A DNA stretch of 43,846 nucleotides, from positions 1 through 43,846 of IMG/VR virus record IMGVR_UViG_3300028364_000059. One strand, 5' to 3'. Every line of letters starts with the position of its first letter. The stretch's first letter is position 1. The position numbers were made by a program, and so were the translations under genes. The DNA comes from a virus. The notes under the pieces are model-generated. The model was not told the origin of the DNA and searched no databases. It saw only the letters and a list, made by a program, of their open reading frames with translations. Shown piece after piece: positions 21,092 through 42,450 of this stretch.

Positions 21092-21343
21092 ATGATTGAT
21101 TACAATATTCACGAATTTACAGAAGATATTTGGATGCTGGTTCCACAAGAAGTTGCGTCTAACAAATACATTGACGAAAATGAAGATTATTTTAGAGACC
21201 TACTGTTTTTCTTTTACCAAAAAAGAATGAATGGTTTTTCTACTGAAGTAATAGCAGAAATGATAACCGAGTTTTTAAAACTGTCATTTGAACATAAGCC
21301 TAAGATGGCTAACATATTAGATGACGATTATCAATTGACATAG
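21092..21343 (+). CDS. Small acidic hypothetical protein, first rightward gene (83 aa)
   Basis: The ATG at 21092 is chosen because the promoter -7 box at 21068-21075 lies upstream of it, whereas a start at 21059 would precede the transcript. The protein is acidic and helical (HEFTEDIWMLVPQEVASNKY...), ending in DDDYQLT. No family is recognised. It stands alone between a divergent promoter and a terminator at 21381-21418, the setting of an early regulator or host-takeover protein. Confidence 0.6.
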   Translation: MIDYNIHEFTEDIWMLVPQEVASNKYIDENEDYFRDLLFFFYQKRMNGFSTEVIAEMITEFLKLSFEHKPKMANILDDDYQLT

Positions 21344-21380
21344 ATACTGTTTAATAAAGTAGTGATTTGTTGAACCAAGG

Positions 21381-21418
21381 GCCCCACAATTATTTTTTAA
21401 ATAATGGGGTCTTTTTTG
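21381..21418 (+). terminator. Terminator after the first rightward gene
   Basis: CCCC and ATTATTT pair with AAATAAT and GGGG, with a 3-base bulge (ACA) on the 5' side and a TTT loop. TCTTTTTTG follows. It lies about 40 bases after the stop codon at 21343. Confidence 0.75.
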
Positions 21419-21442
21419 TTTTGCAAAATATCAGTTAACTTA

Positions 21443-21474
21443 TTTGGAGGATACATTCTTTTTACTTATCTTTG
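21443..21474 (+). promoter_or_regulatory. Promoter of the structured-RNA region
   Basis: TTTG (21443-21446) and TATCTTTG (21467-21474) are 20 bases apart, an excellent match. No coding gene follows for over 800 bases, so its product must be an untranslated RNA or a very long leader. The start is expected near 21479. Confidence 0.75.
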
Positions 21475-21478
21475 CCTC

Positions 21479-21590
21479 GAAGATTTATCCATAATAAGAG
21501 CGTTCTATAAAATATTAGCTTCTGAAAAGAAGTAGAACCCTTGGGAAACACTCTTATTGATTGTCTTCAACCCCAAGGGTTTTTTGTTTT
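21479..21590 (+). ncRNA. Candidate ~110-nt RNA with pseudoknot and intrinsic terminator
   Basis: Four paired elements can be read by eye. AATAAGAG (21493-21500) pairs with CTCTTATT (21551-21558). GTTCTA (21502-21507) pairs with TAGAAC (21533-21538). CTTCT-GAAA-AGAAG (21519-21532) is a perfect hairpin with a GNRA tetraloop. AACCCTTGGG (21536-21545) pairs with CCCAAGGGTT (21572-21581) and is followed by TTTTTG. The first and last pairings interleave as an H-type pseudoknot in which the terminator loop pairs with the 5' end, so the fold may control termination. This may be a stand-alone small RNA or the 5' domain of the longer structured region downstream. Confidence 0.6.
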
Positions 21591-22250
21591 TAAGTGTTTT
21601 ATCCAGGCCACTAATCATCGTAACGGAATAGGGGTGGTCTTGAACAGGTTTAGTAACTGTGCCTTTGAAATAATAGGGAAACATAACGGGGAAGTTTGAA
21701 GTCTTAGGGCGCAATCTGTACACACAAGAAAACAGTATATAGGGTATCCCTAAAGGTTTAAAGAACCTTCTTCAGCCCACGGTGGGAATCGTGATAACTG
21801 TAGGGTCAATTTTAAAGGTGTAAAAGCTTTTTTCTAAGACGATTGATATTTAAAACTGTTTTTAAAACTAGCTACAAATAGCTAAAATGCACTAAATCAG
21901 CTACTTACGATTTTTTGTAAGGGGTTTCCCCACATCCACACTTTAAGGCTTACCGCAAAAATTTAAAAAACAACAAAAATTACGAATTTCGCCTAAACGG
22001 CGACCAAAGAAAGTCTTTGGATACTGTAAACTTCGTACCTCAGTTTACTAAACAGTAATTTTTACTTTAATGAAAACTCAGAATGGTACAGGGTGATGTA
22101 TTTCAGTTTAGTCTTTCGGAGAGATAAAGAAACTGTCTTTTACTCAAACGTAGGTACCTGCATGCAAATGGGTTTTAGATTCTACCGCAGTAGGAGAACA
22201 GTTTTGCCCAAAGCCAATCCAATTTTTTATGGGGCAATTAAATGTTAAAA
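21591..22250 (+). ncRNA. Candidate large structured non-coding RNA region (about 660 nt, or about 770 nt with the 5' domain)
   Basis: No credible gene exists here, yet the sequence is less AT-rich than its neighbours and crowded with hairpins. These include GGCCAC/GTGGTC (21606/21634 region), AAGGTT-TAAAG-AACCTT (21752-21768), TAGCTA-CAAA-TAGCTA (21869-21885), CTTAC/GTAAG followed by GGGGTTTCCCC (21903-21931), TCGCC-TAAAC-GGCGA (about 21989-22003), CCAAAGA-AAG-TCTTTGG (22004-22020), TACTGT/ACAGTA (22022/22052), CAGTTT/AAACTG (22103/22134), TTCTAC-CGCA-GTAG (near 22180) and TTGCCC/GGGCAA (22204/22232). Size, phage setting and lack of ORFs resemble the giant ornate RNAs GOLLD and ROOL. I cannot confirm either class from memory of their consensus. 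Confidence 0.5.
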
Positions 22251-22253
22251 AGC

Positions 22254-22284
22254 TTGCATAGTACATTGATTATCAGTATATTTG
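22254..22284 (+). promoter_or_regulatory. Promoter of the 22.3 kb operon
   Basis: TTG (22254-22256) and TATATTTG (22277-22284) are separated by 20 bases, 19 bases before the ATG at 22304. It marks the downstream limit of the structured-RNA region. Confidence 0.75.
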
Positions 22285-22303
22285 TATAAGAAATAGTAAC
22301 GTT

Positions 22304-22684
22304 ATGGAAGACAAAAAATGTATTTATTGTGACACTTGGGATGCTATAAATGAAAAGGATACTTGTGGGTTTTGTGAAGAGCTTATGGAACGTCTCGTAG
22401 ATTCAGCCGTTGTTTACCTTAAGACACATAGTACAGACCCTGATGACTATAAAGATTTTGAAATAGAAGATTTTAGTGAGAACGTTGTTAGTGTAGAGGT
22501 AGAAAAAGATAATAACTTAAAAGTATCCAAAAGATACCCTGATTACTGTAAAGGTACTGTTAATTGGATAGACCTAGACGACCCCACTAGAGAAGTTTAT
22601 ATAATAACAGTAGATGATAATGGTAATGAAGTATCTAGAGAGTACTTTGGAGATAACCCTAGAATAGAAAAAAATGAAAAATAA
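22304..22684 (+). CDS. Small protein with N-terminal zinc ribbon (126 aa)
   Basis: The N-terminus contains CIYCDTWDAINEKDTCGFCEEL, a Cys-x2-Cys...Cys-x2-Cys zinc ribbon at residues 6-24. An acidic beta-rich domain follows (DLDDPTREVYIITVDDNGNEVSRE). No named family is recognised. The last 11 bases overlap the start of the next gene (ATGAAAAATAA), giving translational coupling to the pair of paralogues downstream. The gene is expressed from the promoter at 22254. Confidence 0.6.
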   Translation: MEDKKCIYCDTWDAINEKDTCGFCEELMERLVDSAVVYLKTHSTDPDDYKDFEIEDFSENVVSVEVEKDNNLKVSKRYPDYCKGTVNWIDLDDPTREVYIITVDDNGNEVSREYFGDNPRIEKNEK

Positions 22685-23571: not shown

Positions 23572-25002
23572 ATGTATACACCATTTCCATCACAACAAAG
23601 AGAGATAGAGAAGATAGTAAAGTTTATAGATAGCAAAACATCTAAAAAGGGAATCTTTACTATGCCTGTAGCTTTTGGTAAATCTATTGTTATAGCTAAT
23701 GTTGCTATGAGATACCCTGAGAAATACTTCATAAACATTGCACCGAACAAAGAGCTAGTAAAACAGAACTACGAGAAGTATATTTCTTATGGTTATGAAG
23801 CTTCCCTATGTTCTGCATCCCTCAATTCAAATGATGTGTCTAAAGTGACTTTTGCTACTATAGGCACACTGATTAAGCATGCTGATTTTTTTAAAAACAA
23901 GGATGTTGTACTCTTGGCAGATGAAGCACATGATTCGAGTTTAAGAGGAGGGCAGTTAGACAAGTTTGTTAAGAAGCTTAAAAAGTGTAAAGTAGTTGGG
24001 GTTACGGCCACACCCATGAGATTAAATCCAACATCAGGGGGTGCTAGACTATCTATGATGGACCGACAGTTTAAATGCATCTATTCTACATTGGAGAGTG
24101 TAGTACAAGTGGCTGATGTTATTGCAGAAGGTCGCTGGTCCAAGCTCATTTACAATGTAGAAAACGTTGATGAAACAAAGTTAGAATTAAACACAACAGG
24201 TTCTGATTACACTTTAGAGTCACTAGCAGCATTTTCAGATGCTAATAATATAAAACAAAAGTGCGTAGAGGCCGTTTATAGGCTCCGAGAAGAAGGTAGA
24301 AAGAGTTGTATAGTTTATGTTACCTCAATAGAAGAAGCAGAGGCTGTGGCTGCTAAAATAGATAATGCTGCGGTATTGCATTCTAAGTTACGAACTGTAG
24401 TAAGGGATAGAGTTATTAGAGAATTTACAAGTGGGAGATTACAGACAATCATAAATATAAATTGTTTAAAGCAGGGATTTGATTATCCGTTGCTTTCCTC
24501 TATTGTGTTGGCAAGACCAACTAATTCTTATACACTATACTACCAGATTTTGGGACGTGCTGTACGTGTACACAAAGATAAAACAAATGCTAAGATTGTA
24601 GACATTTCAGGTAACTATAATAAGTTTGGTGCCATAGAGGATTTAGAATTTCTTAACGCAGATTATGCTGGGGGTTGGGCAGCGTTTAGTGGAGATAGGC
24701 TTTTAACAGATTACGCTTTAGGTGGAAGCCTAGTGCCAACAAAGCAAAGTTTAAAAGACCACTATAAAGATTTTACAAATCCTTCTGCATTTCCAAAAGA
24801 CCCTGAATTTACATTTGGAAAACATAAGGGGACTAAGGTATCTATTGTTAAAAGAAATCATGAGGGATATTTATTCTGGATGGTTGACCCAAAAACAGAA
24901 TTTAAATTTGGGGGTAAGAATGGTGCAGAATTAAAAGCTGCCATTTACAGAGTATTAAAACTGCCGTTTGGTGTGCCCGTAAGAAATAAAGAACCTTTTT
25001 AA
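23572..25002 (+). CDS. Superfamily 2 DEAH-box helicase/translocase (476 aa)
   Basis: A two-domain SF2 ATPase. Motif I is an unusual MPVAFGKS (residues 31-38), motif II is DEAH (117-120) and motif III is TATP (145-148). In the second half, SLRTVVRDR and CLKQGFDYP correspond to motifs IV-V and QILGRAVRVHK (about 330) to motif VI. After about residue 410 a C-terminal module FTFGKHKGTKVSIVKRNHEGYLFWMVD resembles the DUF3820-type segment found in phage exonuclease and helicase proteins. It probably unwinds or remodels DNA in replication, recombination or repair (T4 UvsW or RecG-like role inferred). A nuclease partner is not seen next to it. Confidence 0.85.
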   Translation: MYTPFPSQQREIEKIVKFIDSKTSKKGIFTMPVAFGKSIVIANVAMRYPEKYFINIAPNKELVKQNYEKYISYGYEASLCSASLNSNDVSKVTFATIGTLIKHADFFKNKDVVLLADEAHDSSLRGGQLDKFVKKLKKCKVVGVTATPMRLNPTSGGARLSMMDRQFKCIYSTLESVVQVADVIAEGRWSKLIYNVENVDETKLELNTTGSDYTLESLAAFSDANNIKQKCVEAVYRLREEGRKSCIVYVTSIEEAEAVAAKIDNAAVLHSKLRTVVRDRVIREFTSGRLQTIININCLKQGFDYPLLSSIVLARPTNSYTLYYQILGRAVRVHKDKTNAKIVDISGNYNKFGAIEDLEFLNADYAGGWAAFSGDRLLTDYALGGSLVPTKQSLKDHYKDFTNPSAFPKDPEFTFGKHKGTKVSIVKRNHEGYLFWMVDPKTEFKFGGKNGAELKAAIYRVLKLPFGVPVRNKEPF

Positions 25003-37683: not shown

Positions 37684-37685
37684 TT

Positions 37686-37790
37686 ATGGAAGAATCAAAA
37701 ACAAAAGAAAACAAATACTGTGAGTGTAAAGATACAGAAGTAGAAGAAGTATATAATTCAACTTGTGAAATCTGTGGTAAAGAAAAGTAA
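37686..37790 (+). CDS. Very small zinc-knuckle protein (34 aa)
   Basis: The frame from ATG 37686 to TAA 37790 contains KYCECKDTEVEEV then TCEICGKEK: Cys-x-Cys and Cys-x2-Cys separated by 12-14 residues, a plausible zinc site. It starts two bases after the previous stop. No family is recognised. Confidence 0.55.
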   Translation: MEESKTKENKYCECKDTEVEEVYNSTCEICGKEK

Positions 37791-38074
37791 CTAGTTTAAG
37801 CGACTCTTAGTTGCTTACCATTACAATCATATAACAAAAAGCTAATATTAGCTTAAAAGAGCTTCAAATGCACCCAGATTAAGTGATACATGTACTATTC
37901 CGTATTCGAAGATAGAATAAATTCATATTGTAGAAACTTTAACAGTATTACTCTAGATTTAACCAGACATCTGTTGTATCTTTGTAGAAACTTAAAAAAG
38001 AGCATTTACTAGCAGTAAGACCAACAATAGAGTATGATGTATTTTCTAACATACTAAATGATGTACTAGAAGCA
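37791..38074 (+). other. Gene-free stretch with one promoter
   Basis: No credible gene is seen in this roughly 280-base stretch. A TATCTTTG box lies at 37977-37984, 90 bases before the small gene at 38075. The frame of that gene is open back to base 37985 but lacks an ATG, so the leader may be long or an unusual start may be used. Confidence 0.5.
37977..37984 (+). promoter_or_regulatory. Promoter -7 box
   Basis: TATCTTTG exactly matches TAnnTTTG. TTT at 37958-37960 is a weak -33. Downstream is the small zinc-like gene at 38075 and the 38.3-39 kb gene cluster. Confidence 0.55.
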
Positions 38075-38221
38075 ATGGATAACTACACAAATGAACAGTT
38101 ACATACGCATAGAACTAGTAAGCTTATTTGTGGACAGTTTAATGCGGACCCAAGAACTAGCAGCGCAACAAAATGTACATGTGGCCGTGAAAAATGGGAA
38201 CACCCTAAATCAAAAAATTAA
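38075..38221 (+). CDS. Small putative zinc-binding protein (48 aa)
   Basis: From ATG 38075 the frame reads MDNYTNEQLHTHRTSKLICG and ends with CTCGREKWEHPKSKN. The Cys...CTCGR-x-x-W pattern occurs in small phage proteins and suggests a zinc site. The frame is open for a further ~30 codons upstream without ATG, so the true start is uncertain. No family is recognised. Confidence 0.45.
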   Translation: MDNYTNEQLHTHRTSKLICGQFNADPRTSSATKCTCGREKWEHPKSKN

Positions 38222-38312
38222 TTAAAATAAAAATCATGACAATAAAACAGTAAAGGAAGCTTTAGCTACTTCCGATAACAATATTAACTGCATAAAACGC
38301 ACCAAAAGTGCT

Positions 38313-39068: not shown

Positions 39069-39226
39069 TTTCAAATAAACCCAAGTGTAGAACCTGTGGT
39101 AAAGATATGATAGAATGGAACCTAATGGCAGAAACACACGAACACTCTGAATGTACAGTAGAAAGGATATCAGATAATCTAAGCAACATATTAAAAAAAC
39201 AGTTGAAAAATGGATTATACAGATAG
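39065..39226 (+). CDS. Small zinc-binding protein (53 aa)
   Basis: The frame from ATG 39065 to TAG 39226 has KCRTCGKDM and HEHSEC: Cys-x2-Cys and His-x-His-x2-Cys, enough for a zinc site. It begins within the previous stop and overlaps the next gene by 17 bases. No family is recognised. Confidence 0.55.
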   Translation: MISNKPKCRTCGKDMIEWNLMAETHEHSECTVERISDNLSNILKKQLKNGLYR

Positions 39227-39527
39227 AATACTTATCAAACTAAGAAGGCAGTACAGTGAAAGCGAGACAGTAGCTGCATTATCTAAAAAAGTAACAGATC
39301 TTGAGGTAGAGAATGGTAAACTAGTATCGGAGATACACTATCTGGAGCACCAATAAATAGAAGTCAAATTAACTAAGAGGGATAAGCTAGAAACTCTAAA
39401 AAAAGAAGCTATCCCTTCATTAAAAGGCACCCAGAAACTCAAAAAAGAAAATGTTAGCCTAAAGCAACAAAGAAGTGACCTTATGTACCAAGTAATAATG
39501 CTAAAACAAAAATACGAAAACTTATAA
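39210..39527 (+). pseudogene. Coiled-coil gene interrupted by an in-frame TAA
   Basis: ATG 39210 opens MDYTDRILIKLRRQYSESET, which ends at TAA 39354-39356 after 48 codons. The same frame then stays open for 56 more codons (IEVKLTKRDKLETLKKEA...) to TAA 39525-39527, and this second part also has coiled-coil character (KKENVSLKQQRSDLMYQV). The two parts therefore look like one ~105-residue coiled-coil protein with a nonsense mutation. Alternatives are a stop-read-through product, or a natural short first gene with an unrelated tail. Confidence 0.6.
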
Positions 39528-39529
39528 TT

Positions 39530-39667
39530 ATGGAAGACGAGAGGTACCGTTTTAAAAAAGTAGACATTTTCCTACTTGATGAATTAGCACATTGGCAAGA
39601 CCCAAACATTAATTATGATAAATATTGGAAAGCTGTAAAAGGAGAAAAAAAGCACCCTAAAAAATAA
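39530..39667 (+). CDS. Small hypothetical protein (45 aa)
   Basis: ATG 39530 to TAA 39667 gives MEDERYRFKKVDIFLLDELAH and a Lys-rich tail. It starts 3 bases after the preceding stop. No family is recognised; the composition (Lys/Tyr/Trp) is compatible with a small binding protein. Confidence 0.5.
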   Translation: MEDERYRFKKVDIFLLDELAHWQDPNINYDKYWKAVKGEKKHPKK

Positions 39668-39674
39668 TTAAATT

Positions 39675-39824
39675 ATGGAATGCCAAAACAAAAACTGTAG
39701 TAGAACCGCAACAACCAGCAACTTAGAATATTTCAAAGATATTTGGTATTGCACCCTACACGCAAACAAAGCAACAAGAGAGGCTAGGAGAATAAGAAAA
39801 TACGGAAACAGAACAAAACAATAA
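39675..39824 (+). CDS. Small Cys/basic protein (49 aa)
   Basis: ATG 39675 to TAA 39824 gives MECQNKNCSRTATTSNLEYF with a second Cys and a His in WYCTLHAN. A zinc site Cys-x4-Cys...Cys-x2-His is possible. The tail RRIRKYGNRTKQ is strongly basic. The reading frame continues open downstream of the stop (see the entry at 39825). Confidence 0.5.
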   Translation: MECQNKNCSRTATTSNLEYFKDIWYCTLHANKATREARRIRKYGNRTKQ

Positions 39825-40007
39825 ACTATCGAGAAATCGTATAAAATTGTGGTAGGAAAAACTACCGAAATAAAAGATAGTAGTGTCTTAGATAGAGGCT
39901 ATACAAAATAATTACTTGCATTTAATGACGGATTTACTGAAAGCACCTCATTTGGCCTATATACTTGTATTAAAGTTAATGATACTATACTTTTTGAAAA
40001 AGAATAA
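39825..40007 (+). pseudogene. Degenerate reading frame with in-frame TAA
   Basis: The frame following TAA 39822 is open and protein-like: KIVVGKTTEIKDSSVLDRGY, an in-frame TAA at 39909-39911, then LLAFNDGFTESTSFGLYTCI to TAA 40005-40007. No ATG is visible for it. It appears to be the decayed remains of a gene, cut by a nonsense mutation and now adjoining the truncated DinD-like gene on the other strand, whose 3' end overlaps it. Confidence 0.5.
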
Positions 40008-40413: not shown

Positions 40414-40482
40414 TCTTTAAAATTACAAATTTTATTCTAAATATTATATATTTATACTGTCGATTTTAATGCCACACAACAC

Positions 40483-40519
40483 CAGTGTAAAAAACGTTTT
40501 AATGTGTTTTTACATACTG
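40483..40519. repeat. Imperfect inverted repeat upstream of the DinD-like fragment
   Basis: CAGTGTAAAAA (from 40483) and TTTTTACATACTG (to 40519) form an imperfect inverted repeat around an A/T-rich loop, with TGTTAGCA beside it. It lies between the DinD promoter side and the frameshifted gene at 40548. It could be a terminator for the DinD-like fragment's left neighbour, a recombination scar or a mobile-element end. Confidence 0.35.
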
Positions 40520-40547
40520 TTAGCAAAATTAATAAACGAGAAATAAA

Positions 40548-40708
40548 ATGACAAAAGAAGACCTAATAAAAAAATAGAGAAAGAAATTGACTTTTTAAAC
40601 ATGCGTTTAGACACTGCAATATTTATAGGGGATTGGAATAGAATAAGAATAGAAGAAGGATTAAGCATATATAAGGATATTGTAAATGATTTAAAAACTC
40701 TAGAATAA
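40548..40708 (+). pseudogene. Small helical protein gene needing a -1 frameshift at A7 (53 aa if shifted)
   Basis: ATG 40548 reads MTKEDLIKK then meets TAG at 40575 directly after AAAAAAA (40568-40574). A -1 shift on A-AAA-AAA leads straight into IEKEIDFLNMRLDTAIFIGD and a stop at 40708, a coherent amphipathic helical protein. A-AAA-AAA is a classical slippery heptamer, and a base deletion in an A8 tract would look identical. No strong downstream hairpin was noticed, so a simple indel (biological or sequencing) is as likely as programmed frameshifting. Confidence 0.55.
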
Positions 40709-40763
40709 AATTACTAAAAATTTTTTTTCATAATCGAGAAATTAGTAATCGAGAAACAGGAAC

Positions 40764-40796
40764 GGGGGACCATAGCAAAAGCCCCCAAACTTTTTT
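40764..40796 (+). terminator. Terminator downstream of the decay zone
   Basis: GGGGG (40764-40768) pairs with CCCCC (40782-40786) and is followed by TTTTTT (40791-40796). The stretch after it (to about 40890) is unusual in having long C runs and no gene. It closes transcription before the promoter at 40948. Confidence 0.55.
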
Positions 40797-40925
40797 CAAT
40801 TTTTCCCCCACCCCCCCGTAAAAAAATCCAGCTGGCCAAACAAAAAGTCATAAAGTTTAGTTAAAATTTCCAAAGGGCCACCCACCCCCTATAAAGTTTT
40901 AACAATGTCTTAACAGTTGTTAGGG

Positions 40926-40955
40926 TTTAATATGTAACCTCTTATTGTATCTTTG
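40926..40955 (+). promoter_or_regulatory. Promoter opening the right-end module
   Basis: TTT (40926-40928) and TATCTTTG (40948-40955) are 19 bases apart. The transcript would begin near 40960 and carry a ~50-base leader with GGGGGCAACACTAGCC before the gene at 41009, whose start context is TTAACACTATG. Confidence 0.65.
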
Positions 40956-41008
40956 TATCAGAAAGGGGGCAACACTAGCCACCTATAATTTAACAAAATT
41001 TTAACACT

Positions 41009-42053: not shown

Positions 42054-42071
42054 CAAACTATTGACAAGACA

Positions 42072-42093
42072 AAACCTCCTTAATTGGGGGTTT
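42072..42093 (+). terminator. Terminator after the J-domain gene
   Basis: AAACCTCC pairs with GGGGGTTT (8 bp with one G-T pair) around TTAATT; a following T-rich tract (TTTATCC) is weak. It lies about 18 bases after the stop at 42053 and immediately before the next promoter. Confidence 0.6.
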
Positions 42094-42098
42094 ATCCT

Positions 42099-42106
42099 TA
42101 TCTTTG
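42099..42106 (+). promoter_or_regulatory. Promoter -7 box of the 42.1 kb RNA candidate
   Basis: TATCTTTG, with TATAAGAAC after it, starts transcription in a 400-base stretch without a gene. The expected start is near 42111. Confidence 0.6.
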
Positions 42107-42109
42107 TAT

Positions 42110-42255
42110 AAGAACAAAGGGCGACGTATAGCACCAATACGGGAAGAGTAGACTCCGACGAACCTCATTATAAAATGTTAATATTATCACAAAGTATTTA
42201 AACCTGTTGTAAGTTGGAGTCTACTATTTCGACTCTATCTCAAAGCCAGACTATT
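42110..42255 (+). ncRNA. Candidate small structured RNA with 10-bp inverted repeat
   Basis: AGTAGACTCC (42147-42156) is perfectly complementary to GGAGTCTACT (42216-42225). A small hairpin CGTAT-AGCACCA-ATACG (42125-42141) precedes it. An alternative stem, GAGTC...GACTC (42217-42235 region), competes with the long-range pairing. The region has its own promoter and no credible gene; the next gene starts at 42451. A promoter box on the opposite strand (42310-42317) faces it, so an antisense transcript is possible. Confidence 0.55.
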
Positions 42256-42309
42256 TTTTAAGCTCAAAAAAGTTTTTTATTTCATAAGCGTATCGCTTTT
42301 AATTCTTTA

Positions 42310-42317
42310 CAAAGATA
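42310..42317 (-). promoter_or_regulatory. Opposing promoter -7 box
   Basis: The minus strand reads TATCTTTG (42317-42310). It points leftward across the candidate RNA. No minus-strand gene follows, only an AAGCG-ATA-CGCTT hairpin and A/T-rich tracts, so any transcript would be antisense to the RNA at 42110-42255. A -33 box is not clear. Confidence 0.45.
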
Positions 42318-42419
42318 AGGTATAAGTATAGTTTTTAAAGACTGTTTAACAAGATGTTAACAATTAAATCTTTTCAATAGTTTAACATTTTATTAAGAAT
42401 AATATCGTTTTGTTGGTCG

Positions 42420-42427
42420 TATCTTTG
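42420..42427 (+). promoter_or_regulatory. Promoter -7 box of the 86-aa gene
   Basis: TATCTTTG lies 23 bases before the ATG at 42451, with the leader AACTAAAACACTACTATA. T-rich sequence upstream may supply the -33 contact. Confidence 0.6.
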
Positions 42428-42450
42428 TAATGAACTAAAACACTACTATA

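Follow-up and report, generated by a model that had tools for sequence, protein, structure and literature searches.

We know of few large structured RNAs in phages, namely GOLLD and ROOL, and of none whose function has been established. ROOL RNAs are large, phage-borne and devoid of open reading frames (ORFs), and in some genomes they lie near tRNA islands. GOLLD is a large RNA of phages and prophages with conserved and variable domains, sometimes with a tRNA nearby, and its conserved region is located at the 3' side (PMC12286853). The ornate OLE RNA, of about 600 nt, occurs mostly in extremophiles and anaerobes of the Bacillota and is linked to the ribosomal protein bS21 (PMC12054373). The put RNA of phage HK022 measures ~70 nt and consists of two stem-loops that act in cis on RNA polymerase (PMC9378689). 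In addition, a survey of structured RNAs in the human microbiome describes many unnamed candidates, some of them near phage genes (PMC8040213).

The DNA analysed here, referred to as the window, is the virus record IMGVR_UViG_3300028364_000059 over its full 43,846 bases. Its portal protein shares 35% identity with those of the Cellulophaga phages phi4:1 and phi17:2 (Lightbulbvirus) and 33% with that of the gut phage csAssE-Sib. The structural genes run leftward and the replication-type genes (helicase, UvsX-like recombinase) rightward, and at the switch between them lies a gene-free stretch of about 770 bases (21479–22250). A first-pass annotation, made from the sequence alone, had proposed that this stretch encodes a large structured phage RNA, either a member of GOLLD or ROOL or a new class. 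As described below, the stretch is composite: a leader of ~110 nt, which reaches to 21585 and includes an intrinsic terminator, is followed by a conserved RNA core and a 3' domain.

Coding content, folding and comparison with known RNA families

The stretch contains no credible gene, as the first-pass annotation had stated: its sole ORF of at least 60 aa lies on the minus strand, starts with GTG and is 72 aa long. Among the homologs, conservation falls on base-paired regions and not on codons, and no conserved coding frame runs across the stretch. The window as a whole contains no tRNA. It had also been described as having almost no spare space, which is not quite right, as four other stretches (37684–38312, 39190–39984, 40414–41008 and 42054–42450) lack an ATG ORF of 60 aa. 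Of the lower AT content that had been noted, the direction held (GC 0.359, against 0.329 window-wide), but the contrast is only modest because 11% of equal-sized windows reach the same GC. The richness in hairpins was borne out by a minimum free energy of -183.3 kcal/mol, with z-scores of about -2.1 for the + strand, where 1 of 40 shuffles folded equally well, and -1.4 for the - strand; locally, z-scores reached -2.7 (21481–21600) and -3.7 (21961–22080). Folding energy by itself is weak evidence, and it is comparative covariation that is decisive.

No part of the window matched any of the 4227 families of Rfam 15 at the gathering threshold, and the models of group I and group II introns, RNase P, tmRNA and 6S RNA were unmatched by window and region alike. 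For 21340–22310, neither GOLLD nor ROOL gave a covariance-model match at E ≤ 5; the one match at this level was a sub-threshold chance match at a terminator-like hairpin upstream of the region. Seven homolog loci searched with the ROOL and GOLLD models gave no match at E ≤ 1. Membership in GOLLD or ROOL is therefore not supported, and the comparison with Rfam leaves a new class as the remaining interpretation.

The new RNA resembles ROOL in its size, phage setting and lack of ORFs, and its copy in phi4:1 lies next to a tRNA array, but its core helices differ and its family includes members down to about 250 nt. It shares with GOLLD an architecture of conserved and variable domains, but it is conserved in its 5' half and variable at the 3' side, where GOLLD has its conserved region. 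It is similar to OLE in size, but does not match it. Like put, it is a structured RNA immediately behind a phage promoter, but it differs from put-type antiterminators in size and fold, and the terminators that follow it are backed by new promoters. We found no description of this RNA family in the literature searched, and candidates of the human-microbiome survey may overlap with a fragment of the family (PMC8040213). Judged from sequence, the RNA is apparently a previously undescribed structured-RNA family, unrelated to GOLLD and ROOL.

Homologs in phages and bacterial chromosomes

A blastn search against named phages returned only phi4:1 and phi17:2, with 76.5% identity over 98 nt (window 21604–21701). 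In these phages, the homologous DNA is unannotated and occupies the corresponding place between the structural genes and the helicase gene, with a tRNA array on its other side from the helicase. We judged the two loci to be syntenic because the helicase gene of the window (23572–25002, + strand) has a 53% identical counterpart in phi4:1, downstream of the RNA in both. Searches with the helicase led to the contig L147, which is 91% identical across the whole stretch, and to the more distant L143–L145; no relatives of the neighbouring gene (22304–22684) were found by search. In total, homologs were found in phi4:1, phi17:2 and L147, in some 15 other phage contigs and at about 10 chromosomal loci in genomes of Flavobacteriaceae type, several of these loci being within small integrative elements.

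Further homologs came from covariance models and patterns. A 62-nt core model (R1) recovered the true relatives L176–L180 from Flavobacteriaceae genomes, and its other matches were judged to be chance; most of the genome matches below about 34 bits (L181, L183 and others) were dropped as coding or AT-rich chance lookalikes. The improved model (R2) matched 7 of 400 Flavobacteriaceae genomes; in a phylum sample of 396, the seed genome was its sole match. Model R3 matched 3 of 395 genomes in the class. When viral contigs were scanned with a pattern for the loop motif, 19 matches emerged on contigs of up to 155 kb, and 18 of them score 28–103 bits with R2. R3, whose alignment does not include phi4:1, recovered phi4:1 at the right place with 32.5 bits. 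The window scored 29.8 bits (E 1e-4) with R2, from whose training it was absent, and its family core (21641–21727, + strand) scored 46.7 bits (E 1.6e-10) with R3, the training set of which included the window row. Other searches were unproductive: blastn of L178, L229, L230 and L144 against named phages and of L178 against plasmids gave nothing real, a 14-mer pattern and the pattern ATCGTAACGG gave chance matches except for phi4:1, and the pattern TTARTAAYTGY...AATAATA gave chance matches only.

A covarying core and a Shine-Dalgarno-like motif

The conserved core domain opens with stem P0 (AGGCCAC/GTGGTCT, 21605–21640, + strand), whose score summed over 23 homologs is 306, compared with 249 ± 11 when partners are swapped. 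It is followed by the 90-nt core, in which three nested helices, Pa, Pd and Pc, were aligned across 29 sequences (24 distinct). The window copy forms Pd (CTGT 21657–21660/ACGG 21686–21689) and the hairpin Pc (CCTT 21662–21665/AGGG 21675–21678) with its conserved loop UGAAAUAAU; it contains the family motif ACAUARCG, and its Pa (AAC 21643–21645/GUU 21694–21696) is weak. In this alignment, which was fitted to the model and whose covariation figures should be read with that caveat, 99.1% of cells hold standard pairs (77.4% when shuffled), 70 cells carry double compensatory changes (18.2 when shuffled), both sides have changed in 11 of 15 pairs, and the covariation score is 0.637 against 0.231. 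Versions displaced by 1–3 columns have 33–59% of cells paired. For the viral homologs, part of the 3' strand of Pd was preset by the search pattern, which left Pa and the 3' strand of Pc free. Structure is thus conserved in the relatives, and the large structured RNA that had been suspected from the hairpins is backed by both homologs and covariation. On these comparisons, it appears almost certain that a structured RNA family exists at this stretch and in Bacteroidota viruses and small bacterial mobile elements.

Further downstream, the hairpin CACGGU-GGGA-AUCGUG (21778–21793, + strand) reads CGUAAU-GGGA-AUUACG in L147, with three double and one single compensatory changes around an unchanged GGGA. 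A second, crossing pairing (Pb) fitted L205 and L203, failed in L143 and L204, and is not claimed. The 3' purine motif AAGGGG (21919–21924, + strand) is Shine-Dalgarno-like: [AT]AGGGG or [AT]AGGAGG is present in 20 of the 24 homologs, compared with 3.4 ± 1.7 after shuffling, and it is absent or altered in L222, L230, L227 and phi4:1. The 3' domain (21940–22250, + strand) is predicted to be structured, with hairpins at 21989–22003 and 22004–22020; these last ~300 nt are conserved in L147 alone, with little variation.

Promoter and leader

The strong promoter claimed by the first-pass annotation is located at 21443–21474 (+ strand). It consists of TTTG (-33), N20 and TATCTTTG (-7), fits the Bacteroidetes consensus of host promoters and has a predicted start near 21480. 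The window has 12 occurrences of the motif TTTG-N20-TATCTTTG, compared with 2.0 ± 1.4 in shuffled sequences. The same 31-nt promoter element is also found upstream of the RNA in L147, L143 and phi4:1, and in many phages the motif lies within about 100 nt upstream of the core.

The leader that follows (21480–21585, + strand) ends in an intrinsic terminator, formed by the T stem (21536–21545/21572–21581) and a U-run. A leader arm pairs with the terminator loop in stem P1 (21492–21500/21551–21559, + strand), resulting in an H-type pseudoknot. Such a terminator between promoter and core, with an upstream arm pairing with its loop, was found in the window, L147 and phi4:1, where the P1 arms differ in sequence yet remain complementary (TAATAAGAG/CTCTTATTG, GCTAG/CTAGC and TCGCTGAGTT/GGCTCAGCGG, respectively). 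When loops were shuffled, the P1 score was attained by 10 of 500 shuffles for the window, 16 of 500 for phi4:1, 0 of 500 for a similar unit in L167 and 171 of 500 for L147 taken alone. In L221 and L224 as well, a terminator-like hairpin separates the promoter from the core. A promoter and a ~100-nt leader with a (partly pseudoknotted) terminator also precede other genes in related phages, at L167 (2440–2596), L150 (3640–3740), L151 (2826–2940) and L165 (3388–3550). The promoter-leader-terminator unit thus has the look of an attenuation module in general use within the phage group.

Genomic layout and alternative explanations

In the phage copies, a promoter precedes the RNA, a divergent switch is usually close by, and same-strand genes follow, among them an amidase (L230, L213, L229), GroEL (L215, L226), a terminase (L231) and a sigma-like factor (L217). 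In four contigs (L222, L230, L214 and L216), a strong terminator closes the unit that holds the RNA, with or without one or more genes, and a new promoter lies within about 30 nt behind this terminator. As a terminator followed by a new promoter is seen in several phages, the RNA may form its own short transcription unit. In the window, the next gene (22304–22684, + strand) has a separate promoter (22253–22288, + strand), and the RNA is therefore not needed as a leader there. As a separate observation, a gene of GIY-YIG homing endonuclease type (by eye) lies immediately upstream of the RNA in L222 (-1024..-224) and L214 (-1095..-100 relative to the core).

Our initial idea was that the RNA is a cis-acting leader in the style of HK022 put, EAR or the lambda Q leader, with the nascent RNA binding host RNA polymerase or a phage factor so that terminators in the downstream operon are read through. 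The layout of most loci is compatible with this: a promoter lies immediately upstream of the RNA, at or near a divergent switch, and co-directional genes start behind it, which in many phages are genes for lysis, a chaperonin, a terminase or a regulator. In most phages, the next gene on the same strand is close by and the terminator comes only after one or two genes; put itself lies directly behind early promoters and has an effect over 10 kb (PMC9378689). However, the fresh promoters after the terminators in L222, L230, L214 and L216 mean that read-through is not needed, the nearest terminator in the window precedes the core instead of following it, and a length of 250–700 nt far exceeds that of put. 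We demoted the leader on the layout of terminators and promoters and regard it as doubtful. Because of this layout and of the next gene's own promoter, we favour a self-contained RNA that probably acts in trans.

Another possibility, which we consider unlikely, is an RNA-only nanostructure, in which homo-oligomers like the cages of ROOL and GOLLD would shelter cargo such as tRNA or protein during infection. The size, the phage setting and the position right after the tRNA array in phi4:1 resemble the GOLLD and ROOL setting (PMC12286853), and a tRNA-Leu lies inside a gene-free stretch of the distant relative L151. Against this, neither ROOL nor GOLLD is matched in sequence or structure, the short members measure only ~250 nt, and most members lie away from tRNAs, with none near most of the homologs scanned. 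With regard to tRNAs, we also observed two tRNA-like genes in phi4:1 (L148 3640–3920) with long internal insertions (~100 nt extra) and recognisable acceptor and T arms, for which the annotation is pseudo-tRNA or absent. The phage-like contig L167, binned as Lacinutrix, has two more gene-free stretches beside tRNA genes (720–1445), promoter-led and terminator-ended, which are possible additional non-coding RNAs.

Small elements surround the chromosomal copies; judged by eye, they carry genes for excisionase-like HTH proteins, serine recombinases or integrases. At L210, L212 and L199 (-150 to +850 around the core), the unit measures ~1 kb and consists of the RNA, a 64-aa ORF and a 60–70-aa HTH ORF; in L212, palindromic repeats that follow the scheme TTCTGTTA-N4-TAACAGAAGTTAA flank it, and genome G107 carries two copies of such a unit. 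In the integrative elements L197, L200 and L238, the RNA occupies one end and a small (~200-aa) serine recombinase is encoded farther along, and the copies at L198 and L201 lie in elements with integrases. This setting would fit a mobility or packaging RNA, common to phages and satellites, without which the element could not be moved, packaged or maintained, but no terminase or capsid gene is co-conserved and L150, L151 and L165, distant relatives in the same phage group, have no detectable copy, which makes such a role improbable. The AT-rich DNA and the folding z-score of only about -2 might speak for chance hairpins in ordinary intergenic regulatory DNA. This explanation is contradicted by covariation with double changes in 24 sequences and by homologs in unrelated phages, and can practically be dismissed.

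Proposed mode of action

Our main reading, to which we assign a probability of roughly 0.45 as a whole, is that the stretch encodes a trans-acting non-coding RNA of ~650–770 nt, a member of a new family in Bacteroidota phages and small integrative elements, with 30S binding as a tentative mode. We infer that the RNA would be transcribed from its own promoter as a short separate transcript and that it would work in its folded form and in trans during infection. In the crAss-like versions, the premature terminator-pseudoknot between promoter and core could set the amount of RNA. The folded core would then offer its conserved purine motif (AAGGGG/AGGAGG) to 16S rRNA, whose anti-Shine-Dalgarno tail we take to be complementary to the motif on the basis of the textbook 16S sequence, and the RNA might thereby bind or reserve a subset of host 30S subunits.

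Binding to 30S is our leading specific guess because of this complementarity, the hidden anti-Shine-Dalgarno tail in Bacteroidia, and the ribosome links of GOLLD and OLE. Bacteroidia ribosomes sequester the anti-Shine-Dalgarno tail in a bS21 pocket, and ribosomes that lack bS21 behave differently (PMC9976891); ribosomes were pulled down by GOLLD (PMC12286853), and the OLE complex is reported to include bS21 (PMC12054373). The absence or alteration of the motif in L222, L230, L227 and phi4:1 is awkward for a ribosome-binding role, and the ribosome is an unlikely target when considered by itself. More speculative still is that these RNAs form a widespread trans-acting phage class that captures or reprograms host 30S subunits through an exposed Shine-Dalgarno-like motif in Bacteroidota, with the same RNA carried by small integrative elements.

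Our analysis adds a class of large structured phage RNA that appears unrelated to those described before and has members in both Bacteroidota phages and small integrative elements. The covariance model allows the annotation of stretches that are now left blank. As the RNA is present in the cultured Cellulophaga phages phi4:1 and phi17:2, transcription, deletion and pull-down experiments are now within reach.
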